Of a stretch of 29,409 nt of DNA, positions 1,237 to 28,706 are shown one piece after another. The stretch is from positions 1 through 29,409 of IMG/VR virus record IMGVR_UViG_3300027754_000326. The stretch is one strand, 5' to 3'. The number at the start of each line of letters is the position of its first letter. Within the stretch, counting starts at the first letter, position 1. The translations under genes were made by a program, and so were the position numbers. The notes beneath the pieces were generated by a model, which worked only from the letters and a program-made list of their open reading frames with translations, made no database searches and had not been told where the DNA came from. Source of the stretch: a virus.

Positions 1237-4200
1237 TTATTCGTTAGTACTTACATCCATACCACTATAGTTTATAAAATCTACAGATCCATCTGTATTT
1301 AAAACAGATAAACGAATCCAAAGATTAGTGGGTAAACCTAACCTAGTAAACTTAACAGCACATTCATTACGGCCTGAAATTATTTGTGTATCTGTTCCAG
1401 TTCCTACTCCCGATGAACCTACAATTGGATTTGCATCATTATAATTGTTAGGGGAAATTAAGTCAGCTAAACTACCATAAGATTCGATAGGGCTAGCAAT
1501 ACTCCGTGCAAAATCAGCAGTAATATCTCCAAAACTCCAAGGACCAGAATCAATCTCAGTATCGGCTGTATTTGATTCTCTTATTGGATATACAGCTGTA
1601 CTGTTCCACTTTCTAAATATTTTAGCATAACCAATAGATTTTAACCTAGGTACTTGAATACCTAGCGTAATAACATATCTATTAGCTCCAGCAGTTGTTT
1701 CTACTGTTTCGTGTTTAACATAGACACGTGTATTTGATTTATTAAATCTAGATAAAACACGTGCTTGGTCTACCTTTAACATACCGTTTTTAAAGATATC
1801 ACTTTTATTAACTAAAAGAGTTGTGTTAGTACTGTAATTATGATCTGTAAATCCATACTCTAAAATAATAGAAGTTTTTAAAGACGAAACACTATCTGTT
1901 TTAAAGTAGGGTAATAAACCTGTCTTAGTAACAATTCTATACACATACTCATCTGTAGGGTCTGGCATAAAGTTTATTGCATCTGAAAATAAACGATTAG
2001 CATCTATATTAAGTAAATGAGTACCAATTAAACCATCAGTTGGCCCTACTGAGTTACCAATAGTATTTGGCCTAAAATGCCAAGGGAAATATTCTTTTGC
2101 TCCTTGAGTTACTGGTTGTGTGTATAAAAATCCAGCATATGGTGGAGATTTTCCATAAAGTCTGTATAAATTAAGGTTATCTGAAGCTATAGTTACATTT
2201 TGTGTAACCCAATCAACATCAGCTTCATTAAATCTTATGTTATTATTACTAACTGCATCTGTACTCCAACGAGCACACCAATCAGTCCAAACAGCATCAG
2301 CCTTGTAATAAGCACCTATACCATCAATAGAATAAATAGAAGTATTTGTATTAGTTGTAGGTGCTAGGCATTTTGAATAACCTGTAAATCTTACTGTGTT
2401 TCTTTCAAAACTTCCTAAAGTAGTTAAAGCACTAAGAGTTTTATCAGCTAAAGCAAGTGCTGCTTTGTTGTAATAGATAATTTGCTTAGGAATTTTCCAT
2501 AGGCAATTAGAACCACCATCACTAGAATCTTCTAATCTCTTAAATGTATAATTATCTAATCCTGTGTATTCTGAACTAATTAAAAAACCTTTTTTTAATC
2601 TTGATAAAGCATCTCTATCTTTAACTATAGAATCAGTACTAACAGTAGGACGAGAACTAGCAAATGCCATATCTCGTAATCCTAATAAATAATAATCCCG
2701 ATATGATGCTGCATTCTCATCACCAATAACATTTAATGCTGTTGTCAATGTAGCTAAAGATATTATTCCTGGGGCAGTAAAATACACTGAAGTAGAATCC
2801 ATTTTAGGAATAGAAGATAAACAAGATGTAGAACTATCTGGGATACTTAGATAAAATGTTTTAATTCCATATCCTTTGACCTTAGATGTGTAAACAGGTC
2901 CCGCACCAGTAGAATCTGTATCATAAGTAAAATAAGGAGATGTATAATATTTTCTTCCTGAACCATTAGTTACCTGAACACCATGTTTTTTTAAAGTAGT
3001 AGTTCCAATACCATAACCCGCAGCTGAATACAATTCTTCTGGACTATCCCATAAAGCTGTTGCTGGACTCATTAAGTTTTGAGATGATGTAAAATCAACT
3101 AATGATGAAGTATTTAAAGATAAGTCCCAATGGAACTTAACCTTAACTGGATTAGTAACATTAGCTGCTAACCCTATTAACTGACTGTTAACAGTAGAAA
3201 AGAAAGATTCTGGTATATCTGTACCAGATACGTTTGGCGATGGAAGTGTTTTTTGAAGTATTCTATAGGATGTAACTGGATCAGTAAGGACCCACTCATT
3301 ACTTCCATTTTTAAATTCAGATAATATACCAGAAACTGGAGCTGATATACCAGAACCACCACTATTATAACTAGTATTCAAACCAGAAGCATAAAAAGTT
3401 CTACCACTAAATACTGGATTAGCGGCTGTAATAGTTACAGAAGGAGCAGCATTGGCCCAATTTGTTCCATTGTATCTTAGTATATCTCCAGAAGCTGCAC
3501 CACTTACACTAATACCGCTAAGTGATGCAAAGGTTCCAGAGAATGTAGAACTAACAAATTTAGATCCATCCCATACAAGAGCATACCCAACACCCAAACT
3601 AGATAAATCAAATTGAACAACAGGAGGCCCACCAATTATAATAAAACCACTAGAAGATGGATTAATAACAGTCCAATTTGTAGTATCAGCATTAGGTGCT
3701 GTAGTACCTGCACCAACCGTTAAACGTTTATATAATGCTGTTGCTGTTGCTCCTGTGTGTGATACTATAGCATTAATAGCATAACTAGTACCACTTACCC
3801 AAGAAGGAACACCAGTAGATACTGTATAATAAAAATTTTGAGTACCATTAGTAAAGATATTCTCTTGTATTCCAAAGAGTAATTGATTAAAAGATTCGTT
3901 TAGTTGGGTAGAGGTTAATTTAGCACCATCTACAAAACTATATAACATCCTATCAGTAGGTGTTCTACGCCTAATAACTAACTCACCAGCTGGAGCAGCC
4001 GAAGCAAATACAATATTTTTAGTAGTTGTATTTACAGTATAATTAGTACCCTGAATAAGAAGAGTTTCTGCGGCCAAAGCACTTGCTCTAGAGTATACTT
4101 TAAGTTGTGAGCTTTCTGGAAATTCACAAATCCAAGCAATGGAGTTATAGCTGTAAGTTAAACTTCCAGTTACAGTATGTACATACTCAACATTAGTGAG

Positions 4201-4239
4201 TAATACGGGATTATTAGATGTATAACTATAGCAAGTCAT
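1237..4239 (-). CDS. Tail fibre with T7 gp17-like N-terminal attachment domain
   Basis: A 1000-residue receptor-binding fibre. The first about 150 residues match the gp17 N-terminal domain that docks fibres on the tail: beta-strand-rich start, then VIRRRTPTDRMLYSFVDG and LTSTQLNESFNQLLFGIQE, a segment highly typical of T7-like fibres. About residues 215-265 carry a fibre-type repeat (YALVWDGSKFV and ILRYNGTNWANAAPS). The remainder is a Ser/Thr/Tyr-rich beta-type region with no recognised enzymatic motif, likely shaft and receptor-binding tip. It is much longer than T7 gp17 (553 aa). The gene follows tail tubular B by 9 bases; in T7 four internal-virion genes lie between them. Start has AAGGAG upstream. 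Fibre identity is secure; receptor unknown. Confidence 0.88.
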   Translation of the reverse strand: MTCYSYTSNNPVLLTNVEYVHTVTGSLTYSYNSIAWICEFPESSQLKVYSRASALAAETLLIQGTNYTVNTTTKNIVFASAAPAGELVIRRRTPTDRMLYSFVDGAKLTSTQLNESFNQLLFGIQENIFTNGTQNFYYTVSTGVPSWVSGTSYAINAIVSHTGATATALYKRLTVGAGTTAPNADTTNWTVINPSSSGFIIIGGPPVVQFDLSSLGVGYALVWDGSKFVSSTFSGTFASLSGISVSGAASGDILRYNGTNWANAAPSVTITAANPVFSGRTFYASGLNTSYNSGGSGISAPVSGILSEFKNGSNEWVLTDPVTSYRILQKTLPSPNVSGTDIPESFFSTVNSQLIGLAANVTNPVKVKFHWDLSLNTSSLVDFTSSQNLMSPATALWDSPEELYSAAGYGIGTTTLKKHGVQVTNGSGRKYYTSPYFTYDTDSTGAGPVYTSKVKGYGIKTFYLSIPDSSTSCLSSIPKMDSTSVYFTAPGIISLATLTTALNVIGDENAASYRDYYLLGLRDMAFASSRPTVSTDSIVKDRDALSRLKKGFLISSEYTGLDNYTFKRLEDSSDGGSNCLWKIPKQIIYYNKAALALADKTLSALTTLGSFERNTVRFTGYSKCLAPTTNTNTSIYSIDGIGAYYKADAVWTDWCARWSTDAVSNNNIRFNEADVDWVTQNVTIASDNLNLYRLYGKSPPYAGFLYTQPVTQGAKEYFPWHFRPNTIGNSVGPTDGLIGTHLLNIDANRLFSDAINFMPDPTDEYVYRIVTKTGLLPYFKTDSVSSLKTSIILEYGFTDHNYSTNTTLLVNKSDIFKNGMLKVDQARVLSRFNKSNTRVYVKHETVETTAGANRYVITLGIQVPRLKSIGYAKIFRKWNSTAVYPIRESNTADTEIDSGPWSFGDITADFARSIASPIESYGSLADLISPNNYNDANPIVGSSGVGTGTDTQIISGRNECAVKFTRLGLPTNLWIRLSVLNTDGSVDFINYSGMDVSTNE

Positions 4240-7902: not shown

Positions 7903-9225
7903 TTAGGCAGTAACGTAACTACCTCTGATTGTAGCGCAAAGTTCTGGACGAAGAACACCAGCACCACCCATGATGCTAGCAACAGTAAAGAATGTGCCTC
8001 TACGGACATCCTTAACTGTTTCAACCTTCATACCTTGTAACCGTAGCGAACAAATAGCTGATTGCTGCCAAATAAGAGCTTTAACTGGTTTCAGAGTTTG
8101 ACCAGTTTGAACAACACCTGCAGCATCTACTACGGTAGTAGCAGTATCATTAGTTCCGTTATACCAATTAAAATTATATTTAACGTCGCCTAAATCTTTA
8201 ATTAAGCCAACGTTAATAGATGTAGCTATTCTACCAGTAGTAGCAGATACAGCTCCTTGTGCAGTATTGGCACCACCAGCACCGTTATCACTAACTACTC
8301 GTTGATGATCAAGTTGCTGAATATGGTTAGATTTTACAATCTTAACACCCATATACTCAAGAGTATCTGGAAGATTAAACATACTCTTGCTTAATGGACT
8401 GCCAAGTCCACCAGCCTCTGCTACGCCGCCAAAGAATGGACGACCAGCACCGCCTACAAGGCCAGTAGAGTCACGGGCAATACCAAGAGCACGGATGTCA
8501 TGGAAAGCCTGTGGAGTCACTGCACAGTATACACCAGTAAGGGTAGCGTCAATTTCAGAAAGACGAACCATATAACGCTCTAAGTAATCAAGAAGAAGAA
8601 GCGCAGCATCAGCTCGTTCAGTTGAGGTTGCTCCTCTTAAACCTAACATGTTAAAAGCATTAACTGCTGGGAGAATAGATTCATCTACACACATACCCTG
8701 ATAACCAGATGAAAATGGACTACGAGCAGCAGTTACAGAACCTAATGCAATCATGGAAGCAATTTGCTTATCACGAATGTAACTAAGTTGTAAACCAGCT
8801 TGACGGGCTAGTTCTGAACGATAATCCCATTGAGTAATCATGAGAGAAATATCGTCTAATTCAAAGAATGATGCCATTGGACGCTGATCTAGTGAGATGT
8901 CAAAGTAACCAGCAGTTGATGCATTAGAATCTCCTAAAAGTTCTTCACCAGCCTTCCAAACACCTTTATGACCAACGGTTCCAGTAACAGGAAATCGTTT
9001 AGTGGTGCCTGATTCAATGGTTTGTGTAGTTACCATAGGTTCAAAAATATTGTATTGATCGTAAGCATTAAGTACTTCGCCAGACCATACTGGAAGCCAG
9101 TATTGTTCTGTTCCAACTGCTCCTGGAGTTGCTGAAGTAGTATTTGCTGCCGCACCGCCACCAATCCAACCGTAGGTTTGCGAAGGTGCGGGTACAAGTT
9201 GTGATGCTGATAATGAGTCTGCCAT
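7903..9225 (-). CDS. Major capsid protein (T7 gp10-like, HK97 fold family)
   Basis: A 440-residue protein in the gp10 position, between scaffold and tail tubular A. Typical segments include EVLNAYDQYNIFEPMVTTQ, TKRFPVTGTVGHKGVWKAGE, a DISLDQRPMASFFELDDIS extended-loop-like region, and a helical QAGLQLSYIRDKQIASMIALG. The C-terminal part has the VKIVKSNHIQQLDHQRV stretch common in this family. It assembles into the icosahedral shell around the scaffold. T7 gp10A is 345 aa; this one is longer, and I see no slippery site giving a gp10B-like extension. The start has a strong AAGGAGAAAC site. An intergenic leader precedes it and a strong terminator follows it, which marks it as a highly expressed gene. 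Confidence 0.92.
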   Translation of the reverse strand: MADSLSASQLVPAPSQTYGWIGGGAAANTTSATPGAVGTEQYWLPVWSGEVLNAYDQYNIFEPMVTTQTIESGTTKRFPVTGTVGHKGVWKAGEELLGDSNASTAGYFDISLDQRPMASFFELDDISLMITQWDYRSELARQAGLQLSYIRDKQIASMIALGSVTAARSPFSSGYQGMCVDESILPAVNAFNMLGLRGATSTERADAALLLLDYLERYMVRLSEIDATLTGVYCAVTPQAFHDIRALGIARDSTGLVGGAGRPFFGGVAEAGGLGSPLSKSMFNLPDTLEYMGVKIVKSNHIQQLDHQRVVSDNGAGGANTAQGAVSATTGRIATSINVGLIKDLGDVKYNFNWYNGTNDTATTVVDAAGVVQTGQTLKPVKALIWQQSAICSLRLQGMKVETVKDVRRGTFFTVASIMGGAGVLRPELCATIRGSYVTA

Positions 9226-9332: not shown

Positions 9333-10259
9333 TTAACGATTTCTAAAACCGTACCGAGATGTATTAATTGTCATTGCCTCTACTGCATTTCTATATGCAG
9401 AGTCTACCCGAAATCGTGGATCTCGTAAAGCAGCTTGTTGTTCAGCAAAACTATTAAACACCTGTACGGATTGTGGAACCTGAGATTGATTAACCCGATT
9501 GTCCATTGGTCTAGGTTCCTGTGAAGGGGCCTTTGGTGGGTTTTGTTGCTCGTAGCGTGCCTTAAGTCCTAGGAGGATATTCTTATAAGCATTTGTCTGT
9601 AGAGCGCGATTAGTAGCAGAAACTTCTTCAGCAGTCAGGTTGTCCTGTGCCCATTTGAACATTCGTTTTAGATTGTCATTGCCTCCGACAACCGAAGCCG
9701 CATCGTCCCATGATTGCTTTGCCAAAGCTTTTCTACCTTTAATTAATTGCTCAATAATAACTTCATCCGCACCCATCTTTTCTCTAATTTCTTTTCGAGT
9801 AGCGTCACTTACGGAATCTGCTGAGTCAATTTCTTTACCCCAGCGGACCCAATCTTCTGCGCTAATCTTATTAGAGACTGATTGTGGAATTGTAGATGCA
9901 ACTATTTTAAGATCTTCAGCAATGCCTGATAGATCCTCTACTACCTCAGGTACTGCCTGAGCAACGGGAGGTGAGTCCTTATAATCAGGATTGATCACCC
10001 CATTTTGATTGTATTGTTTTTTTAATGATGCATTTTCCTGTTTAGCCTGAGTGAATCCTTTACGGGCTTCAAGAAGGCTATTGAACCAAGCATCAGATGA
10101 TTTGAAGTTACTAGGGATCTTTTGTCCCTGATCTTGAACGTACTTCATGAACATTGCACGTTCGTGTGTTGTAACTGGATCTTCTGTTTGAATTGGTGTT
10201 GCTAAATCTGGCTGAGTCCCTACAGGTTGAGATTGTTCAGCATTATTAATTTCTGGCAT
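9333..10259 (-). CDS. Capsid scaffolding protein (T7 gp9-like)
   Basis: A 308-residue protein (T7 gp9 is 307) immediately upstream of the capsid gene. It has a Gln/Pro/Thr-rich disordered N-terminus, then a helical region with coiled-coil character (about 60-90, LLEARKGFTQAKQENASLKK), an acidic central helix region (SAEDWVRWGKEIDSADSVSD), and an Arg/Asn-rich C-terminus ending SRYGFRNR, as expected for a capsid-binding tail. It should guide prohead assembly and leave before or during packaging. The start has AAAGGAGAG upstream. No enzymatic motif. Identity comes from composition, size and position. Confidence 0.85.
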   Translation of the reverse strand: MPEINNAEQSQPVGTQPDLATPIQTEDPVTTHERAMFMKYVQDQGQKIPSNFKSSDAWFNSLLEARKGFTQAKQENASLKKQYNQNGVINPDYKDSPPVAQAVPEVVEDLSGIAEDLKIVASTIPQSVSNKISAEDWVRWGKEIDSADSVSDATRKEIREKMGADEVIIEQLIKGRKALAKQSWDDAASVVGGNDNLKRMFKWAQDNLTAEEVSATNRALQTNAYKNILLGLKARYEQQNPPKAPSQEPRPMDNRVNQSQVPQSVQVFNSFAEQQAALRDPRFRVDSAYRNAVEAMTINTSRYGFRNR

Positions 10260-10594: not shown

Positions 10595-11023
10595 TCATTT
10601 CTTAAGTTTGTTAAAAATTACTTTACCAGTTTTATGTAAATTTGATTCAAATGTTGATAAGACAGTGATACCAGAGTCTATAGAACAACTACCTTCTATG
10701 TAATCATAAATACTATTAGAATTTTGATCGGTGGTTGACGTAACTAAATCATATGTATTATCGTCTGGATTATTTATATCAGCTAATACAGTACTACTAG
10801 TTCCTGTATCTTTATTAACATATGTAATAACGTTTAAATTTAAATTAACTGTATTTCTTGCAGATACTAAAAACGCATCTAATCTATTTGTTTTTAAAGA
10901 TGCAGCTCTAGTTACTATACCAGCACTTGATAGAGTGCCTCTATTTTTTAACGGAGAATTATTAAACTCTACGTATACTCCATAAGCTAAAGCATAAGCT
11001 TGTTGAATTGTTGTTAATGCCAT
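10595..11023 (-). CDS. Probable virion protein, shortest of three tandem paralogues
   Basis: A 142-residue protein with no known domain. Its start (AYALAYGVYVEFNN) and end (LHKTGKVIFNKLKK) resemble those of the two longer genes just upstream, whose ends read YHNTGLILLKKLK and YHNTGIQILKKLK and whose starts have LALARGANFF and LALAKGANYN. The middle is unlike them and lacks the lectin-like core. Shared termini with a variable core suggest a common attachment or assembly interface. The ribosome binding site GAGGT overlaps the preceding stop codon, as for its neighbour. Likely a minor structural or receptor-associated protein; function inferred only from context. Confidence 0.65.
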   Translation of the reverse strand: MALTTIQQAYALAYGVYVEFNNSPLKNRGTLSSAGIVTRAASLKTNRLDAFLVSARNTVNLNLNVITYVNKDTGTSSTVLADINNPDDNTYDLVTSTTDQNSNSIYDYIEGSCSIDSGITVLSTFESNLHKTGKVIFNKLKK

Positions 11024-11028
11024 TTTTT

Positions 11029-11049
11029 ACCTCACTTTAATTTTTTTAA
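11029..11049. repeat. Direct repeat at a paralogue gene junction (copy 1; copy 2 at 12215-12234)
   Basis: Plus-strand ACCTCACTTTAATTTTTT occurs here and again at 12215-12232, with only the length of the T run differing. On the minus strand it encodes the shared C-terminal Lys-Lys-Leu-Lys, the TGA stop, and the GAGGT ribosome binding site of the next gene. It is a footprint of tandem gene duplication and a possible recombination point. Confidence 0.8.
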
Positions 11050-12210
11050 TAAGATAAGACCCGTATTGTGATAACTAATTTCCTTGTCATCTAAGGTTGT
11101 TGTTGTTGAGGTATATGGATTTGGAAGCAAAACTAACTTTTCTACCGTCATTGTACATGGAAAAGTAGGTACATTATTAGGTAAAGAATCACTAGTAGAT
11201 CTTTGTTCTCTAACAGCGCAACCAGCATTTAATGCTGCTTCATCAAATTCAAAATCAGGAATAGAAGAATAATCTATAGATGCTATACTAGTTCCATTAG
11301 CATACCATGTAATTGTAGTTCCAGCCCAAACTACTCTAAGTTGTTGACTAACATGGGCGTTTAAACCTGTTGTTGTAGATAAAAAAACGTCTTTGACACC
11401 AGTACTAGATCTAAGACCTATTATAATTGCATACCAAGTCCATTGTCCGCTTACATAGAATGGGTGAAATCCAATCATATTTCCTGTTAATCTTGCCATA
11501 ATGCCACTTCCTGATGGATTATATAAAACATTTACAACTTGAGGACCATGTTCCCTAAAATAACCAACTACAAATCTACAATCCGAATACGTATTATTAC
11601 CTTCTAATGGATTTAAAAAACCAGTAAAAGTTAAATCATATGTATTAGGTGTAGCTGTACTTATACTTCCTTGAAGGCTACTCATGTATGAGTAATTAGT
11701 GACAGTATTTGTATAATCTTTTAAAGCTGATGTTAACATGATTCTACTGCTAACGGTCATTGTAGGATTGGTTGATAAAACAACAGATTTATTTGTAAGT
11801 TTAAATAATCCAGTTTCTCTTGGTAAAGAAGCCGTAGCTTGAACAATTAACCAATCACCTATTTTAATAATTAGATAGGTAATTCCATTTACAACATAAT
11901 ACGTAGTTGTAGTTGATTTCATACCTAACGAAAAATTAGATGTATCACTTAAGTTACCGCCATATTTATAAATTAATTGTGAGTTTAATAAATCAGTGCT
12001 AGTACTTTTATTATAAACTATTGTACCTGATGATGCTAAACCAATAGCATAATCTGGATCAAGTGCAGCTCCATTATATGGTCGATCTTTAAAACGAAAA
12101 CCACTAGAAGCTGTTAATGTATTATAGTTAATTCCCTTATTAGGAAGGAAGTTATAAAAAAAATTAGCACCTCTAGCAAGAGCTAATAATTGGGGATAGG
12201 ATACTTGCAT
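11032..12210 (-). CDS. Probable virion/adhesin protein, tandem paralogue with lectin-like core
   Basis: A 392-residue protein, unrecognised by name. N-terminus MQVSYPQLLALARGANFFY and C-terminus NTGLILLKKLK match the next gene upstream. In the centre, WTWYAIIIGLRSS and HVSQQLRVVWAGTTITWYAN, followed by SIASIDYSSIPD, align with that paralogue and look like strands of a concanavalin-A-like sandwich. Such domains in phages bind sugars or decorate fibres. It lies within the block of adhesin-like genes between portal and scaffold. The start codon is 6 bases after a GAGGT site that includes the previous gene's stop. Structural role is likely; sugar binding is inference. Confidence 0.65.
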   Translation of the reverse strand: MQVSYPQLLALARGANFFYNFLPNKGINYNTLTASSGFRFKDRPYNGAALDPDYAIGLASSGTIVYNKSTSTDLLNSQLIYKYGGNLSDTSNFSLGMKSTTTTYYVVNGITYLIIKIGDWLIVQATASLPRETGLFKLTNKSVVLSTNPTMTVSSRIMLTSALKDYTNTVTNYSYMSSLQGSISTATPNTYDLTFTGFLNPLEGNNTYSDCRFVVGYFREHGPQVVNVLYNPSGSGIMARLTGNMIGFHPFYVSGQWTWYAIIIGLRSSTGVKDVFLSTTTGLNAHVSQQLRVVWAGTTITWYANGTSIASIDYSSIPDFEFDEAALNAGCAVREQRSTSDSLPNNVPTFPCTMTVEKLVLLPNPYTSTTTTLDDKEISYHNTGLILLKKLK

Positions 12211-12217
12211 AACTACC

Positions 12218-13630
12218 TCACTTTAATTTTTTAAGGATCTGGATACCAGTATTATGGTATTGAGTATCTGAAAAGGTAATTTCAGTATTTGTATCTTCAT
12301 AATTATTAGCACCAAAAAGTAAACCAGCATCAAATGTAATGGAACCAGCAGTAGCGTGGTTAGCTGGTGCAGTATAGATATTATTAACAACAGTAAAAGT
12401 TGTTGAGTTAGTAATTGCTCCAATAAATACTCCTGTTGTGCTTGTAAGAGCATTAAAAGCACCACCTCCAGTACTTGTTTTTTCTACACGCATACCAACA
12501 CTAAGTCCAGTTGTAGTACCAGTAGTTAAGGTAACAACATTAGTACCAGTAGCTAAAGTAGCAATTAAACCACCCTTACCACCAGCTGGTAATTGTCTCC
12601 AAGAAGCTGCTTCTTCTACATATATAGAAGCAACTCCAGCTATATTGTTTGTACCATCATCTCCACCTTTTTGTGATAATACACCAGCATACATAGAGTT
12701 AGTTGTGTTTTGTATAAAAATGTTAGGTATATTAGCTACAGTTACTGTAGCAACAGGAGTTACCATATCATTAGCATAAAAAGTAACTACTCCATCAGTA
12801 AAATTAACTTTTAATTTTTGTGAAGAAAAAGCCGAAAGATTTGTATTAAAGCTATATAGATATTCGTTATCATTAGATACACTGTTAGCAGCTTTTACAA
12901 CAGCGTACCATGTATAATTTTGTCCACCTATAGCTTGAACTGGAATAAAACCAAAACCATGTGTTGGACCCACTAATGTGTTTAAAGTTGGGTCTATTAT
13001 ACTAAAAAGGTGATTATATGTATAACCAACAAAAAAAGTTTTTTGTCGTGTTTTAGCTGAATCTATAGTTCCATCTCCAGCAAGAAAATCACTTTTTTCT
13101 ACATAACCCCTATAATACATGGTAGCATTTGCTTTATCTGTAAACTGTAACCATCCTACTACTGTGCTTGATGAAGGATTTATTAAAGTTCCAGTTCTAT
13201 CATAAAGAGTATCATGTATTATACTACGAGTAACACCAATTAAACCAGGTCCACAAGTTATTTTTAATTTTGTACCATCAGAAGATACTGTTCCGCCAGT
13301 TGGGCTAGTAGCATGTCTTTGGATTTCATACCAATTTCCCAAGCTTTTTCCATTAGTCCATTTCATAGCAGTATCTACTAAATTACCACCAGTTCTATAT
13401 ACTAGTTTTGAATCATTAACAGTAGTGCTAGAAGCAAGGGTGTATAAAACAGCCGCAGAATTTAGTGCATTAGGTGCAGAGTTACTAAGTACAAACGATG
13501 GTTGATTTAGTCTAATGGGTGTTGCAGTACTCAACAATGTAGCTAAATTAATTCCAGGAAATTTACCTGGAAAATTATAATTAGCACCTTTAGCAAGAGC
13601 TAGTGCTTGTGGAAATGAAATAGCTGGCAT
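12218..13630 (-). CDS. Probable virion/adhesin protein, longest tandem paralogue
   Basis: A 470-residue protein. The ATG at 13630 has GGAGG 8 bases upstream, so it is preferred over an in-frame TTG five codons earlier. Shared features with the following gene: start PQALALAKGANYNF, middle WYAVVKAANSVS plus FSSQKLKVNFTDGVVTFYAN, and end YHNTGIQILKKLK. It has an extra segment near residues 350-445 (ATGTNVVTLTTGTTTGLSVG, then TNSTTFTVVNNIY), a small beta repeat type frequent in phage tail proteins, inserted just before the common C-terminus. This points to domain shuffling within a duplicated family. Likely a virion surface protein. Confidence 0.65.
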   Translation of the reverse strand: MPAISFPQALALAKGANYNFPGKFPGINLATLLSTATPIRLNQPSFVLSNSAPNALNSAAVLYTLASSTTVNDSKLVYRTGGNLVDTAMKWTNGKSLGNWYEIQRHATSPTGGTVSSDGTKLKITCGPGLIGVTRSIIHDTLYDRTGTLINPSSSTVVGWLQFTDKANATMYYRGYVEKSDFLAGDGTIDSAKTRQKTFFVGYTYNHLFSIIDPTLNTLVGPTHGFGFIPVQAIGGQNYTWYAVVKAANSVSNDNEYLYSFNTNLSAFSSQKLKVNFTDGVVTFYANDMVTPVATVTVANIPNIFIQNTTNSMYAGVLSQKGGDDGTNNIAGVASIYVEEAASWRQLPAGGKGGLIATLATGTNVVTLTTGTTTGLSVGMRVEKTSTGGGAFNALTSTTGVFIGAITNSTTFTVVNNIYTAPANHATAGSITFDAGLLFGANNYEDTNTEITFSDTQYHNTGIQILKKLK

Positions 13631-13651
13631 TGATGAGTCCTCCAATTTTAA

Positions 13652-14796: not shown

Positions 14797-15528
14797 TTAT
14801 TGAGTCCAGTTATTAACCAGTAAGGCTAAGTCCTGTGAGTTTACTGTGCCGTCTCCGTTAATGTCATGGGGATTAGGTTTAAAACTAGTAGATCCCCAGT
14901 CGGCTAGGAGTTCACCCATGTCTTGAGCTGTTATTAAACCATCATTATTAAAATCACCCTGTAAAGCAAGACCAACAGTTGTATTGGTTAAAGAACCAGT
15001 AACAATGTTTCCACCTACACAGCAACCATATACAATGCATTTTGCTGGGTATTGTGGATTAAGGGGTAGGTTGTCATATAGGATAACTTCTGATTGACCT
15101 AATCCAATTACTTTAAAGACAAACTTACACATCTGGGCTGGCTCTGTGGTTACAATCCATTGGTAACCTAGTACTCCATAGCAATAGAACATCCCATTAC
15201 CATCCTGTGGAGGAACTACTTCGTTACATAGGGTATAATCATTATTAGGAAAGGTAGAGTATCCAGCCATAACTCCAACATGAGATCCAATTAAGGATAC
15301 TCCTAGGAGTTGTAGTTTGGTATTGTCCCATCCAAAGGGTACATCAGCCACTACAAACCTCTGTGGGGCATTCTCAGCTGATACCATGAGCTGTACCTCA
15401 ATGATATCATCTAGTGCCACAGCCTGTTGTGGGGTTACTAGGGATAGGTTAAGCTTGGCTGTGGGGTCGTTTTGAGCCATAGCCATATTGGTCAGACATA
15501 CTAAAAAAAGACAAAATAAAAGTTTCAT
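14797..15528 (-). CDS. Secreted cohesin-like protein with dockerin type I repeat pair
   Basis: A 243-residue protein with a signal peptide at residues 1-18 (LLFCLFLVCLTNMAMA, cleavage likely before Gln19). About residues 25-185 form a beta-rich domain (LNLSLVTPQQAVALDDIIEV, then VPFGWDNTKLQLLGV) like cohesin-type sandwich domains, with seven Cys in the stretch from about 100 to 170. Residues 192-242 hold two Ca-binding loops, DFNNDGLITAQD (192-203) and DINGDGTVNSQD (222-233), each with the D-x-N-x-D-G-x-x-x-x-x-D pattern and followed by helices with LL.DWG and LV.NNW. This is the dockerin type I layout, in the style common in Planctomycetes. It follows fibre and accessory genes and is followed by a probable terminator. 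An exported, Ca-dependent binding protein is inferred; virion incorporation is unknown. Local base use is richer in G than the neighbours, hinting at acquisition. Confidence 0.8.
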   Translation of the reverse strand: MKLLFCLFLVCLTNMAMAQNDPTAKLNLSLVTPQQAVALDDIIEVQLMVSAENAPQRFVVADVPFGWDNTKLQLLGVSLIGSHVGVMAGYSTFPNNDYTLCNEVVPPQDGNGMFYCYGVLGYQWIVTTEPAQMCKFVFKVIGLGQSEVILYDNLPLNPQYPAKCIVYGCCVGGNIVTGSLTNTTVGLALQGDFNNDGLITAQDMGELLADWGSTSFKPNPHDINGDGTVNSQDLALLVNNWTQ

Positions 15529-15947: not shown

Positions 15948-18392
15948 TTAAGTAAAATAAATTATTGCATACCCTACGCCACCTACGCCACCTGCTCCAC
16001 CACCTGTAAATCCTGCTCCTCCACCCCCTGCTCCTGACCCATTAAGACCTGCTCCCCCTACGCCACCTACGCCAGTGGCGTGTGAAGCACCTCCTCCTCC
16101 TCCTGGCCTACCCCAATCATGGATATTTCCTCTAGTATTGGTAGCTGCTCCTCCTACGCCTCCTGGGGCTACACCACCAGAGATATTGGCATCAGCAAAC
16201 GGATACATACCAAAAGATGCACCACCGTTAGTTGCAACATTGCTTGTATTAATTCCTCCACCAGAACCACCACCATATGGAGACATAGATAAACCTACAG
16301 CAATAGAAGATGTTTGTCCACCAAGGGAACCAGCACTGACTGAACCTGAGCCACCTGTGCCTCCAATATAACCTTGTGTTGCTCCAGTACCTCCTGTAGT
16401 TGTTGTTCCAGTAGCAGTACCTGCTCCACCTATACCACCAGCACCCCAGCAAAGTCTAGTTGCAGCTACTCCATTATAGGTAGCTGTAACAGTTGATGTT
16501 CCTCCGTTACCACCAGTTCCTGCTAAACCAGATGAGGATACAGGACCAGCACCAGATAAACCTCCAGCACCAGCAGTAAATGTCAATGTTCCTGTTATAT
16601 CAGCTACAGCATATTTTAATATATTTACAGAACCCCCTCCTCCTCCTGCACCACCACATCTATTCTGTCCGTTACTATTCCATGAACCACCACCTCCACC
16701 ACCGCCTCCACCACCACAAACTATTGTTATAAAGGTAGCACCTGCGGGTATTGTTATACCAGAAGTAGTGGTAGCATAGAATGCTCTAGTTGGGGTAAAT
16801 CCACTAGATATGGTTGCTGGAACCCAAGCTGTATTATTCCATTGAATAACTTGATTTAAAGTAGCACCTGTTTGTGTAAGATCACTGAGGGCATGAGTAT
16901 GGCTAGTAGGAGTCCTTGAATTAGATAATCTTGAATCATCTGCTCTTACTACTTGAGTTGCATTACTAACACCTGAAGTAACAAAATCTACAGCAAATGT
17001 TCTATTGGCAGATAGATCTCCACCACCTGTTAAACCTAGTCCTGCTGTTAAAGCTAAAGTGTCTGGAACAGGGGATGTAGCTATGGTAGCTAATTCACCA
17101 AGAGCGGATAGTTTAAGACCGTTGCCAATAGTAATGTGTTGACCTACTCCAGTTCCTCCTGTATTCCATCTACCAAGTAATCTCATTTGTGGTATAGATG
17201 TTATATCTGCTATTACATGAGTATGGGTAGCAGCGGCTATACCAGCTGATGATAGTGATCTATTGACCCACTCTGTTGTGTTCCATTGTAGTACATCGTT
17301 ATTAGCAAGGGAAGTTAATGCTGTATTAATCAATACTGAGCTAGGTAATCCTACAGTAATAACAGATCCAACTGTAGTTACTTCAACTTCACCAGCAGTA
17401 CCTACTACTGTAGTTCCTGTTGGTAAGACTCCTGAATCTTTAAGTCGTATACCAAAAAAATCAAGTTTAAAGTCAAGGTCAGATGGAGTACTACTATTTA
17501 AATTTTCAAATCTAATTCCAGTATTTAAAAATCCTGTAGGAACATTTGTTGAAATTACAACTTCAGTTCCACCATTAATAGTAAAGCCAACACTTGTTGC
17601 AGTTTTCTTTTGAATTTTAATGGTGTACCATGTATTATTTGCTATTGCAGTCGTTGTTCCAGTAGTAGTTGTCCCGTTATTTACAGTTGGGGTCCATACT
17701 CCACCGCGTGTACCTACTATAAATATACCTTGTGAAGGTGAATCTGGATTGTCAAATAAACCTAATTTAATATTGTATCCATCAGTCGGACTAGCCGTTG
17801 GAGTTTTTATAGTAAAGTAAACAGTATTAAAATCAGTAAAAATAAACGAATCAATTCCAGGTGAGTTGGTCATTGACATATAACCATACCCATATCCAGA
17901 AAGTAATCTAACAAGAACAATTCCTAAGTGTCCTGTTTCTGAATCATTTTCAAGTATATTTAAACTACTAGGAACTAAAGTATTACTACTTGTTGTTCTA
18001 GGTCCTGAAGAGTATGAGTAAGGACTTAATGTACCAGATTCATTGCCATTACTTTGAGCAATAAAATTATCCCATATAATAATGGGTTGATCTGGATCAC
18101 TTGGATCTATACCTCCTCCACCACCACCTACTGGATTGTTTTCTAAATCTTGAATTCTAGCTTCCCAAGAAGTTATATTGGTTACGTCTAGTTGTTGGTT
18201 TAAAAGAATAGTAGTTGAGTCAGTCTGAGTAGATACATTACCTAGGGTATTACCAATAGTAGCGAGATTTTGTGTTGTTTGTTCAACAAAGGTATTAAGG
18301 TTAACTATAGTACTATTGTCAGTAGCACTTGTTGTACCTTGTAATTTTCGATCTTCACGACGTGCATGAGCTGATTGTTTGCGATCTGTCAT
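15948..18392 (-). CDS. Large Gly-rich tail fibre/adhesin with lectin-like domain
   Basis: An 814-residue modular protein. Residues 1-95: charged N-terminus (RKQSAHARREDRKLQG) and Thr/Asn/Gln-rich coiled-coil-like part ending in a poly-Gly linker. About 100-320: a probable concanavalin-A-like jelly roll (YFTIKTPTASPTDGYNIKLG, NNTWYTIKIQKKTATSVGFT, FKLDFFGIRLKDSG). About 330-560: fibre repeats (LANNDVLQWNTTEWVNR, VIQWNNTAWVPA) and two His motifs of fibre type (ATHTHVIADIT, SHTHALSDLT). About 575-814: a Gly-rich domain opening with TSGITIPAGATFITIVCGG, then many GGxGG segments, like Gly-rich tip domains of other phage adhesins. It likely trimerises and binds the host. It overlaps the preceding 48-aa gene as ATGA. 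Confidence 0.8.
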   Translation of the reverse strand: MTDRKQSAHARREDRKLQGTTSATDNSTIVNLNTFVEQTTQNLATIGNTLGNVSTQTDSTTILLNQQLDVTNITSWEARIQDLENNPVGGGGGGIDPSDPDQPIIIWDNFIAQSNGNESGTLSPYSYSSGPRTTSSNTLVPSSLNILENDSETGHLGIVLVRLLSGYGYGYMSMTNSPGIDSFIFTDFNTVYFTIKTPTASPTDGYNIKLGLFDNPDSPSQGIFIVGTRGGVWTPTVNNGTTTTGTTTAIANNTWYTIKIQKKTATSVGFTINGGTEVVISTNVPTGFLNTGIRFENLNSSTPSDLDFKLDFFGIRLKDSGVLPTGTTVVGTAGEVEVTTVGSVITVGLPSSVLINTALTSLANNDVLQWNTTEWVNRSLSSAGIAAATHTHVIADITSIPQMRLLGRWNTGGTGVGQHITIGNGLKLSALGELATIATSPVPDTLALTAGLGLTGGGDLSANRTFAVDFVTSGVSNATQVVRADDSRLSNSRTPTSHTHALSDLTQTGATLNQVIQWNNTAWVPATISSGFTPTRAFYATTTSGITIPAGATFITIVCGGGGGGGGGGSWNSNGQNRCGGAGGGGGSVNILKYAVADITGTLTFTAGAGGLSGAGPVSSSGLAGTGGNGGTSTVTATYNGVAATRLCWGAGGIGGAGTATGTTTTGGTGATQGYIGGTGGSGSVSAGSLGGQTSSIAVGLSMSPYGGGSGGGINTSNVATNGGASFGMYPFADANISGGVAPGGVGGAATNTRGNIHDWGRPGGGGGASHATGVGGVGGAGLNGSGAGGGGAGFTGGGAGGVGGVGYAIIYFT

Positions 18393-21057: not shown

Positions 21058-22971
21058 TTAACTTACCTCACAACCACCTGCTGTACAAGCAAGGGCGCGA
21101 GCATTTGTGGTGCCATCCTCTAACTCATATAGTGAGAGAAGACTAAAATCAACGCTGGTTGGCATAGTACTCTGCATTTTATCATACTGTTCTTCAGTAA
21201 TCATTTCAAAGGGTGCTTGCTGATATACATGGTTATCCCTCGGTAAGAAAGAAATACCAGAAATTGCTTCCCAATGTTTCCATACCCAATCCCCAATAGC
21301 TAGGAAATCAGAGTCACTGTAATTCACAGTAATGCTTGGCTTGTGATCACAGTACCAAAGTTGATATGCTAACCACAAATTAAGATGACCAAGAGCATTG
21401 ATCTGAGACTCTGTAACACCAAAGTCTGCCTTAATAGGGAAAGAGAATATTGTAGTTTGTTCTGCTTTCATTACACAATCTTCATTAGGAACTCCTGAAT
21501 CAATCATGAATCTTGCCATTGGTGAGTTCTTAGCCATGCGTATACGTCGGATATAGAACTTACTAAATCTTGGATGTAATCCAGAAGCAGTACCAGCAAC
21601 ACAGCTAGTAGTACCTTCAGGTTTAATACAGGTAATAGATACAGAGGGATTAATTCCAATATAATTAGCCCATTCCTCATTAGTTTTATGGGAAACAAAT
21701 TTCAAGACTCCTAGTAATTTCTGTAGTTCTTCTGGACCATCACCACCATTGGTTAGGTTGTTGTCAAAGATACCAGTCATACTAACGCCAAGTAATCTTT
21801 CCTCTTCACAATTATCTTTGAAAGAGGAATCATTATTGGACTCAAAATACGAGAAATTGGTAAGCGCACTCTGTAACGTTCCCAGAATAGTCGCCAACCT
21901 AATCTTATTAATGAGCTGGGGGGCCTGGTCTTCAGGCCGTACAGCAATCGTGGACAAATTACAGAATTGATTTGGTCGTAGGATGATTTCAGAACAGGGA
22001 TTAGTCCCAAATTCATACTCTTCCTTTCTACCAGCACGTTTTGCAATAAGACGCATTGCTTCTCTATTACAAATACCACGTTCACCTGATCGTGAGTTGT
22101 ATAGAGATGACCATTCCCGCATAAAGGAACCCATGTCTGGCTTTGTTTCGTATACAACAGAGTTGTTTGCAAGAGCACGATGTCCATTCCTTTCCCACCA
22201 AGGTCCACTCTTGGCATGAGCCATTTCATAATCAGATAGATCAGATAGACTGATTAAGGCAGAGCGCCTAACCCCACCAGAGACAATAGAATCTGCAATT
22301 TGACATACAAGGTCATGTACTTCTAGTGGTTTAAGCTTACGTCCACGGGCCGCATTAAAGATGTTAGCCGTGAACTTGATTAATCTAATAAAGGGTTCTG
22401 GACCAGATGCTCGACCACCAAAGGTCTTTAGCCTAGCCCCAGCTGGGCGAATATTTGAACAATCCATTTCATAATGTTTACCTGCATATAAAGCATTAAC
22501 AAACTCAACATAAGCACCAGCCCACCCCTCTCGGGAATCAGCTACCCTATAAACTAAACCTTTAGTAAAGGATTCAGGAATAAGAGGAAGGTTATTAACA
22601 TTCTCTTTTTCAACTGAGAACCCAACACCCGTACCACACGCTAGTGCATACAGGATATTACCTAGGTCTTGAGTAGTATTAATGGCAATATAACAACAAT
22701 TATAAGCTGCTACATCATCTTTGTCAAGGGCAGGACCTGCCGTCATTAGGGTTCTCATGGAACCAAAGACTTCTCGGTCTTTCATCATCTTACGAGCAAG
22801 ATCAATATCTCCCATTTTTTCAGCAGGAAGCTTAGTTTTAAGATCTAAACGATTAATAAGATAATCAAAGTAACGATCTACGGCTTCCTCCCATGTTTCT
22901 CTACGGCTTTGTTCTGGTAACCAACGGCAATACTTATCTACTGCGACAAAATCTTCAAATACTTTGCTCAT
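21058..22971 (-). CDS. Adenosylcobalamin-dependent ribonucleoside-triphosphate reductase (class II, monomeric type)
   Basis: A 637-residue enzyme that reduces ribonucleotides to deoxyribonucleotides for phage DNA synthesis, with coenzyme B12 as radical source. Diagnostic residues: a Cys pair NCCYIAI (92-93), of which one equals the first redox Cys; NPCSEIILRPNQFC with Cys326, Glu328 and Cys337, in the same C-x-E-x8-C spacing as Cys408/Glu410/Cys419 of the Lactobacillus enzyme; and a C-terminal CTAGGC pair (629, 634), the shuttle Cys in the expected C-x4-C spacing. SDSIVSGGVRRSALISLSD and IRPAGARLKTFGGRASGPEP are family signatures. No separate small subunit is seen. It overlaps the exonuclease by 17 bases. 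The phage presumably relies on host-derived B12. Confidence 0.93.
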   Translation of the reverse strand: MSKVFEDFVAVDKYCRWLPEQSRRETWEEAVDRYFDYLINRLDLKTKLPAEKMGDIDLARKMMKDREVFGSMRTLMTAGPALDKDDVAAYNCCYIAINTTQDLGNILYALACGTGVGFSVEKENVNNLPLIPESFTKGLVYRVADSREGWAGAYVEFVNALYAGKHYEMDCSNIRPAGARLKTFGGRASGPEPFIRLIKFTANIFNAARGRKLKPLEVHDLVCQIADSIVSGGVRRSALISLSDLSDYEMAHAKSGPWWERNGHRALANNSVVYETKPDMGSFMREWSSLYNSRSGERGICNREAMRLIAKRAGRKEEYEFGTNPCSEIILRPNQFCNLSTIAVRPEDQAPQLINKIRLATILGTLQSALTNFSYFESNNDSSFKDNCEEERLLGVSMTGIFDNNLTNGGDGPEELQKLLGVLKFVSHKTNEEWANYIGINPSVSITCIKPEGTTSCVAGTASGLHPRFSKFYIRRIRMAKNSPMARFMIDSGVPNEDCVMKAEQTTIFSFPIKADFGVTESQINALGHLNLWLAYQLWYCDHKPSITVNYSDSDFLAIGDWVWKHWEAISGISFLPRDNHVYQQAPFEMITEEQYDKMQSTMPTSVDFSLLSLYELEDGTTNARALACTAGGCEVS

Positions 22972-28540: not shown

Positions 28541-28542
28541 AG

Positions 28543-28615
28543 TGGTTCCTGTGGGGGTCGAACCCACGACCAACCGATTAAAAGTCGGTTGCTCTACCAA
28601 CTGAGCTAAGAAACC
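28543..28615 (-). tRNA. tRNA-Lys (anticodon UUU)
   Basis: A full cloverleaf on the minus strand: acceptor GGTTTCT pairing with AGGAACC (one T-G wobble), a D-arm with AGCTCAGTTGGTAGAGC, anticodon stem ACCGA/TCGGT around the loop CTTTTAA, and a T-arm with GGTTCGA. Discriminator A; the CCA end is not encoded. It would help read AAA, abundant in this AT-rich phage. It is 3 bases from tRNA-Leu, so the two are probably processed from one transcript. Confidence 0.93.
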
Positions 28616-28618
28616 GAA

Positions 28619-28700
28619 TAGCTTCGGGGGGACTTGAACCCCCACGCCTTGCGGCTACGGATTTTAAGTCCGCTACGTATGCCAATTCCGCCACGAAGCC
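28619..28700 (-). tRNA. tRNA-Leu (anticodon UAA)
   Basis: An 82-base class II tRNA on the minus strand: acceptor GGCTTCG pairing with CGAAGCT (first pair G-T), anticodon loop CTTAAAA within GCGGA/TCCGT, a variable arm (AGCCGCAAGGCG), and a T-arm with GGTTCAAGTCC. Discriminator A; no encoded CCA. It reads TTA, a Leu codon favoured in AT-rich genomes. Confidence 0.92.
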
Positions 28701-28706
28701 AAAATG

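Follow-up and report, generated by a model that had tools for sequence, protein, structure and literature searches.

A family of phage proteins with two conserved ends and exchangeable middle parts, encoded upstream of the scaffold gene in uncultured T7-like phages

Introduction

Why should a phage carry three adjacent genes whose products are alike at both ends and differ in the middle? The question is raised by IMG/VR virus record IMGVR_UViG_3300027754_000326, 29,409 bases of DNA from an uncultured phage, all of which was analyzed and is called the window here. The gene content is that of a T7-like podovirus and lies on the minus strand throughout: a portal (phrog_449), a scaffold (Phage_T7_Capsid), the major capsid protein (MCP), and tail proteins, plus a primase/helicase, a DNA polymerase, and a ribonucleotide reductase. 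An original prediction, made from the letters alone, had correctly placed the three genes at 10595-11023, 11032-12210, and 12218-13630, all on the minus strand, and had proposed that they arose by duplication followed by core swapping, their ends being used for docking into the virion. They encode proteins of 142, 392, and 470 amino acids (aa); the last is counted from an ATG, and the TTG at 13645 chosen by the caller of open reading frames (ORFs) gives 475 aa. The block that contains them, the cassette, is flanked by a tail protein gene (15948-18392) and the scaffold gene (9333-10259), with portal and tail genes on one side and scaffold and capsid genes on the other.

Searches of Pfam and PHROG gave no convincing family for any of the three proteins; the best match was phrog_34051 (expect value [E] 0.026), to the C-terminal part of the 142-aa protein. 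As described below, comparisons with related phages confirm that the three genes belong to a widespread family of two-ended proteins and are not just a local duplication. The members are most likely virion adhesins whose ends would serve as a docking base.

Results

The ends of the three window proteins were compared by BLOSUM62 local alignment, and each score was set against those of 5,000 shuffles. The predicted C-terminal motif, HxTGxxxxxKLK, is present in all three proteins, with one extra K in the 142-aa protein; the predicted N-terminal motif, ALAxGxxxxF, holds in the 470- and 142-aa proteins and fails in the 392-aa protein, which has Y in place of F. Over the N-terminal 40 aa, the 470- and 392-aa proteins scored 75 (0/5,000 shuffles as good), the 470- and 142-aa proteins 32 (48/5,000), and the 392- and 142-aa proteins 30 (125/5,000), a value that was also reached when other gene starts were compared (2 of 34 comparisons). 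The corresponding scores over the C-terminal 25 aa were 64 (0/5,000), 36 (6/5,000), and 44 (1/5,000). When the first 100 aa were used, the scores of the 142-aa protein were not set apart from those of the shuffles (307/5,000 and 2,230/5,000). From the window alone, the similarity of the ends is decisive for the 470- and 392-aa pair and only suggestive for the 142-aa protein.

The position of the 142-aa protein was settled by a profile of its relatives. The profile was trained on 16 short members of the family (defined below) from other phages, with the window group excluded, and was run against 2,285 real ORFs plus equal numbers of reversed and shuffled ones. It found 42 ORFs at E ≤ 0.046, including the 142-aa protein (4.6e-24), the 475-aa form of the long protein (1.7e-6), and the 392-aa protein (0.046); unrelated matches began at 0.91 and decoys at 1.6. 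Because all three window proteins rank before any decoy, the predicted terminal similarity is better than chance for the whole trio. Among the 42 are a 643-aa protein of locus L054 and its fragment in L056, both with a diverged end, and several proteins truncated by contig ends.

How widespread the family is was determined from loci collected with the window MCP as the query, which gave 80 IMG/VR loci (numbered with L here), more being added by later scans. For the census we took the 56 distinct scaffold alleles with >2.2 kb of upstream sequence and examined the last four ORFs of ≥100 aa before the scaffold gene; near-duplicates within the 56 are the window and L003, L010 and L011, L044 and L046, and L013 and L014. 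Members lie just upstream of the scaffold gene in 46 alleles (one in 25, two in 16, and three in 5), so that the copy number per allele, which the original prediction had proposed to compare, varies from 0 to 3. The 10 alleles with no member are eight distant ones (MCPs 45 to 56% identical to that of the window) plus L032 and L035. Three members in tandem are also found in L094, with the order of the two long lineages reversed relative to the window.

The members are either short (115 to 209 aa) or long (380 to 1,314 aa), and the long ones have unrelated cores between their ends. In sequence, the short members look like a bare base; reading the 142-aa protein in this way, with no passenger, is preferable to assuming that its core was swapped. 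The base would consist of an N-terminal strand-helix around Q-x-x-A-L-A-x-G and a C-terminal loop-helix around E-x-x-Y-H-x-T-G-x-x-I-x-K-K-L-K, with a passenger domain, when present, inserted between the two, for which there are at least two sites; the 470- and 392-aa proteins would each be such a base plus a passenger with a concanavalin A (ConA)-like jelly-roll fold. In the AlphaFold model of the 142-aa protein, which is of fair confidence (predicted local distance difference test score [pLDDT] 76; predicted template modeling score [pTM] 0.73), there are helices at residues 6 to 14 and, at the C terminus, 124 to 141; residues 97 to 112, shortly before the C-terminal loop, are poorly predicted.

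In the 470-aa protein, the N-terminal base segment comprises residues 1 to about 85 (13376-13630, minus strand), as delimited by profile matches at residues 1 to 17 and 50 to 85 and by alignment A2. The jelly roll (residues 91 to 348, approximately; 12587-13360) starts right after the GGNL of the base segment (residues 81 to 84) and is followed by an additional module (residues 351 to 442; 12305-12580) and the C-terminal loop-helix (residues 446 to 470; 12221-12295). The same two-part architecture is found in a 464-aa protein of L054, in which positions 1 to 117 of the profile match residues 1 to 101 and positions 54 to 141 match residues 385 to 464. In other long members, such as those of L010 and L037, the passenger seems to sit earlier: in the profile matches, about 14 to 37 residues of the N end are followed by the core and then by much of the base. 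The additional module, about 92 aa long, bears out the predicted extra insert. It is present in the window clade (L008 and L034), with a diverged copy inside a short member of L076 (43% identity over 89 columns; E 3e-7), and the 381-aa relatives in alignment A2 lack it; thus, the module is itself movable.

The C-terminal end could be anchored in 60 of 61 proteins, the other being a frameshifted member in L088. The G of the motif is present in 60/60, the lysines at +9 and +11 in 58/60 each, the H in 56/60, and an acidic residue four positions before the H in 58/60. At the conserved end residues, 43% of the codon pairs encoding the same residue differ, versus the 55% expected from codon usage, which indicates conservation at the protein level and not solely at the DNA level. 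We read the ends as a functional base. The L088 member (L088:1697-2698) has 333 aa versus 381 aa in its close relative in L014, and its frameshift is either an assembly error or decay.

Structure modeling, which had been proposed as a check, assigned the core of the 470-aa protein to the ConA-like jelly-roll fold, nearest to the PL7 alginate lyases and GH16 enzymes. The best Foldseek match was to PL7 alginate lyases (E 1.7e-6), with 86 matches at E ≤ 0.001, and the VIA comparison gave Z 14.4, with 197 residues aligned (span 91 to 347) at a root mean square deviation of 3.5; confidence in the model is middling (pLDDT 56; pTM 0.56). Sequence identity to these enzymes is about 10%, and the PL7 and GH16 catalytic motifs that were looked for are absent from the 470- and 392-aa proteins, a stray QVH occurring in 1 of 11 aligned proteins. 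The modeled passenger is therefore more likely to be a lectin-like binder than a lyase. The 470- and 392-aa proteins share this core, at 24% identity over 285 aligned residues; the description of it as lectin-like in the original prediction agrees with the fold of the 470-aa protein.

Other passengers have other folds. RCC1 repeats were detected in long members of L041 (1.6e-12) and L063 (1.5e-6), and Lipase_GDSL_2 was matched by the passenger in L029 (E 1.1e-6) and by L137 (E 0.0068), both under the curated cutoff. An SGNH-like core in L010 has the S, G, N, and H invariant in 7/7 aligned proteins (alignment A8), and Pfam found no GDSL domain in L010, L116, L109, L125, L122, or L035. The SGNH-like protein lies inside the base in L010 and is encoded by a stand-alone gene beside a short member in L109, L116, L117, L122, and L125; the version in L122 carries a CBM_5_12 module (E 1.4e-7). 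When the SGNH-like and ConA-like alignments were used as queries in sequence searches of the PDB, no significant match was returned. In L015, L016, L018, L027, L028, L043, L044, L052, L118, and L135, the partner place is taken by a family of 922- to 1,074-aa proteins, the N-terminal part of which lacks the GDS motif and has weak similarity (30% over 114 residues; E 4e-4) to the SGNH-like proteins.

Exchange was examined in pairs of phages whose scaffold proteins are ≥93% identical (n = 109; the pairs are not independent). In 48 of these, the last two cassette genes had no BLAST match (E 1e-5). The clearest view came from L130, which is nearly identical to the window in the portal (98.8% over the 242 residues present), the scaffold (98.1%), the gp11-like (98.2%) and gp12-like (96.5%) proteins, and the cohesin-dockerin protein (94.8%; see below), with an MCP that is 68% identical. 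Its cassette encodes proteins of 473 and 152 aa, neither of which matches the three of the window, although both retain the family ends. The base profile detects the 152-aa protein (E 4.2e-10); the 473-aa protein is found only by profiles of the N end (0.0026) and the C end (0.034), the whole-base profile giving 3.6. DNA similarity between the two phages ends in the first codons of the 470-aa gene and returns in the last 55 nucleotides (nt) of the 142-aa gene. In all of eight pairs hand-picked for differing cassettes, similarity was regained no more than about 55 nt from the stop codon that closes the cassette, inside the last gene in five and just after it in three. L036 retains a fossil (L036:2943-3014), the 24-codon 3′ end of a deleted short member; directly after it comes an unrelated 462-aa gene, and in 86 of 89 columns the relic can be aligned with the intact copy in L117. 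With unrelated cores on the same ends, cassettes replaced between near-identical phages, and this fossil, the exchange of middle parts and of cassettes is well supported by the sequence comparisons.

The MCP (7903-9225) is exchanged too, its identity ranging from about 65 to 100% across the 109 close pairs. Strict coexchange of cassette and MCP was rejected: 8 pairs have MCPs ≥85% identical despite a replaced cassette, and 30 have MCPs <80% identical despite some match between cassettes.

The predicted direct DNA repeats at the gene junctions are real. On the minus strand, the repeat at the end of the 470-aa gene (12214-12259) and that at the end of the 392-aa gene (11028-11073) are 74% identical over 46 nt, nearly perfectly so in the first 20 nt or so, and each holds the stop codon and the ribosome site of the next gene. 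No such repeat was found at the end of the 142-aa gene. The end of the L130 152-aa gene also matches the end of the 392-aa gene, including the junction repeat.

What of the history of the window trio itself? The core of the 392-aa protein is 37% identical to that of a 393-aa protein of L094, 17 to 25% to those of the other lineage's members, and 24% to that of the 470-aa protein, and its ends follow its core in this grouping. A recent duplication of the 470-aa gene to give the 392-aa gene was rejected, as both core and ends of the 392-aa protein group with the L094 protein and not with the 470-aa protein; no homogenization of ends within one genome was seen. In these groupings the pair is an old paralogy, in which ends and cores traveled together. 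Thus, of the predicted duplication followed by core swapping, the exchange of cores stands across the relatives and is not supported for the trio: the 392-aa lineage is also present in L094, with ends that group as the core does, and the 142-aa protein is best read as a bare base.

Discussion

We think it probable that the family members are swappable virion adhesins on a common base. The base would dock the proteins on the particle, the passengers, to judge by their folds, would bind or modify host surface sugars, and the cassette would be traded between phages by recombination at its edges, sometimes aided, as seen for some pairs, by short stretches of similar DNA where the ends are encoded and at the ribosome site. 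The locus would then act as a host-range locus besides the ordinary T7-type tail fiber. We infer docking on the particle from the location of the genes, the adhesin-like swapping, and the folds of the passengers. Exchange of alleles between close phages is expected of a virion adhesin and was found, both in the 48 of 109 pairs and in L130.

Several observations weigh against this interpretation. No member matches a known structural family in the Pfam and PHROG scans. The phage already has a separate T7-like tail fiber (1237-4239). In L032 and L035, an SGNH-like protein occupies the cassette place with no detectable base. The catalytic motifs missing from the two jelly-roll proteins count here as well. 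Both ends of the 470-aa model are at pLDDT <50, and the base model had no resemblance in the viral library BFVD (best E 1.3) and no Z ≥ 2 among 588 PDB chains, which is not proof of a new fold.

The location next to the scaffold gene allows another placement on the particle. The proteins could be head-surface fibers or decoration proteins, docked on the MCP by their ends, since in almost every allele their genes come directly before those of the scaffold and the MCP; in L130, moreover, the scaffold is 98% identical to that of the window, and the cassette and the MCP on either side of it both differ. We regard this as possible but doubtful. Cassette and MCP are exchanged independently, as in the 8 of 109 close pairs with replaced cassettes and conserved MCPs and in L088 and L014, which keep the cassette despite MCPs of 73.6% identity, and this argues weakly against a close matching to variable parts of the MCP.

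It is unlikely that the proteins are not part of the virion at all and are instead made in the infected cell and freed at lysis, where they would bind or trim surface polysaccharide, the ends serving for folding or for forming oligomers. The absence of matches to structural families would fit such proteins, as would a dockerin-containing neighbor (described below) whose N terminus, by eye, resembles a signal peptide, making it a possibly exported product within the same block; against them are the position of the members, which in 46 of 56 alleles lie with tail genes on one side and scaffold/capsid genes on the other, and a swapping pattern that resembles that of adhesins. The least probable of the explanations is that conservation of the ends chiefly provides DNA homology through which neighboring genes recombine, with no role in docking. 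The junction repeats, the edges of similarity that fall at the ends, and the L036 fossil speak for it, but codons at the conserved residues are near saturation, with 43% differing where 55% are expected, and the G after HxT is kept in 60/60 proteins. Conservation of the ends purely as DNA homology is thus disfavored by the codon differences.

If the members are adhesins on a docking base, how do they compare with known systems? In anchored tailspikes and fibers there is usually only one conserved end, the N-terminal anchor, and the rest varies. The family described here is like them, for example the depolymerases of Klebsiella phages, in having a conserved attachment part, an exchangeable recognition part, and swapping between close phages; it is unlike them in that the variable part lies between two conserved ends. 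Schitoviridae are known to have fibers whose SGNH domains deacetylate host polysaccharide, namely, Possum gp66 and, cited there, G7C gp63.1 (PMC9569702). These too are adhesins of short-tailed phages with an SGNH-type domain between the attachment part and another part, and this passenger type also occurs in relatives of the present locus. In contrast, the Schitoviridae fibers attach by the N terminus and have a C-terminal receptor binder, whereas here both ends are kept; the likeness is one of domain type.

The cassette thus looks like a plug-in system for host-cell recognition, with two kept ends and a middle swapped among unrelated folds, in uncultured phages from dozens of metagenome contigs. 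If the ends do serve for docking, they would amount to a naturally occurring two-ended adapter for particle display and a tag with which to find candidate host-recognition genes of these phages in metagenomes. A tblastn search of 50,697 phage records with one short member (L015) gave no match, and no relative of the window MCP was found in genome_contigs. A literature search of titles and abstract openings turned up no account of the family, nor of phage particles with a natural cohesin-dockerin system.

Calcium binding by the C-terminal end and a cohesin-dockerin neighbor are leads only. The C-terminal loop can be read as a canonical EF-hand loop before a helix in L061, L028, L076, and L037, and a strict calcium-loop pattern was matched by 8 of 54 distinct C termini (one of which, L106, matches upstream of the loop position) versus 6 of 605 other ORFs, all 6 of them dockerins. 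By the criterion for an EF-hand-like loop (D, N, or S ligands at positions 1, 3, and 5, a hydrophobic residue at 8, and an acidic residue at 12), position 8 is hydrophobic in 60/60 and position 12 acidic in 58/60, with D at position 1 in only 22/60; the pattern is degenerate in the three copies of the window. Profile comparison with the four dockerin half-repeats caught by the pattern gave E 0.057, little separated from controls at 0.075 to 0.37, and Pfam found no dockerin or EF-hand in 19 short members. Type I dockerins have two tandem EF-hand-like repeats; the C-terminal end here does not fit them, being a single loop-helix, in effect one half.

The neighboring gene at 14797-15528 (minus strand), a possible partner, encodes a protein with a dockerin domain (PF00404; E 4.9e-8, above the cutoff) that is homologous (38% over 216 columns) to a protein of L014 that also has a cohesin domain (PF00963; 7.2e-6, above the cutoff); Pfam gave no cohesin match in the window copy. 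Its N-terminal stretch, inspected by eye, is signal peptide-like. It could be imagined that the virion carries a cellulosome-like plug board, in which a split base ending in a half-dockerin-like, EF-hand-like loop-helix holds inserted lectins, deacetylase-like enzymes, and propeller-like domains that are exchanged as cassettes, organized by the cohesin-dockerin protein encoded two genes upstream of the 470-aa gene and switched by calcium. We consider this very unlikely. Of 28 bacterial relatives of the neighbor, mostly of its dockerin part, 24 are in records of Planctomycetota or a Planctomycetota subgroup, and these sequence matches suggest such a host for the phage.

Other features of the window

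The conventional fiber mentioned above, encoded at 1237-4239 besides the cassette, is a 1,000-aa protein with a T7-type tail fiber N terminus (phrog_11393; E 2.3e-11). The tail protein that flanks the cassette (15948-18392; 814 aa) carries an SO2946-like_C domain (E 6.4e-12), and its C-terminal part is rich in glycine; L130 matches this protein only at the ends and in patches. The ribonucleotide reductase is encoded at 21058-22971 (phrog_367; E 1.3e-162). Two tRNA genes, Lys(ttt) and Leu(taa), are present at the end of the window (28542-28701).

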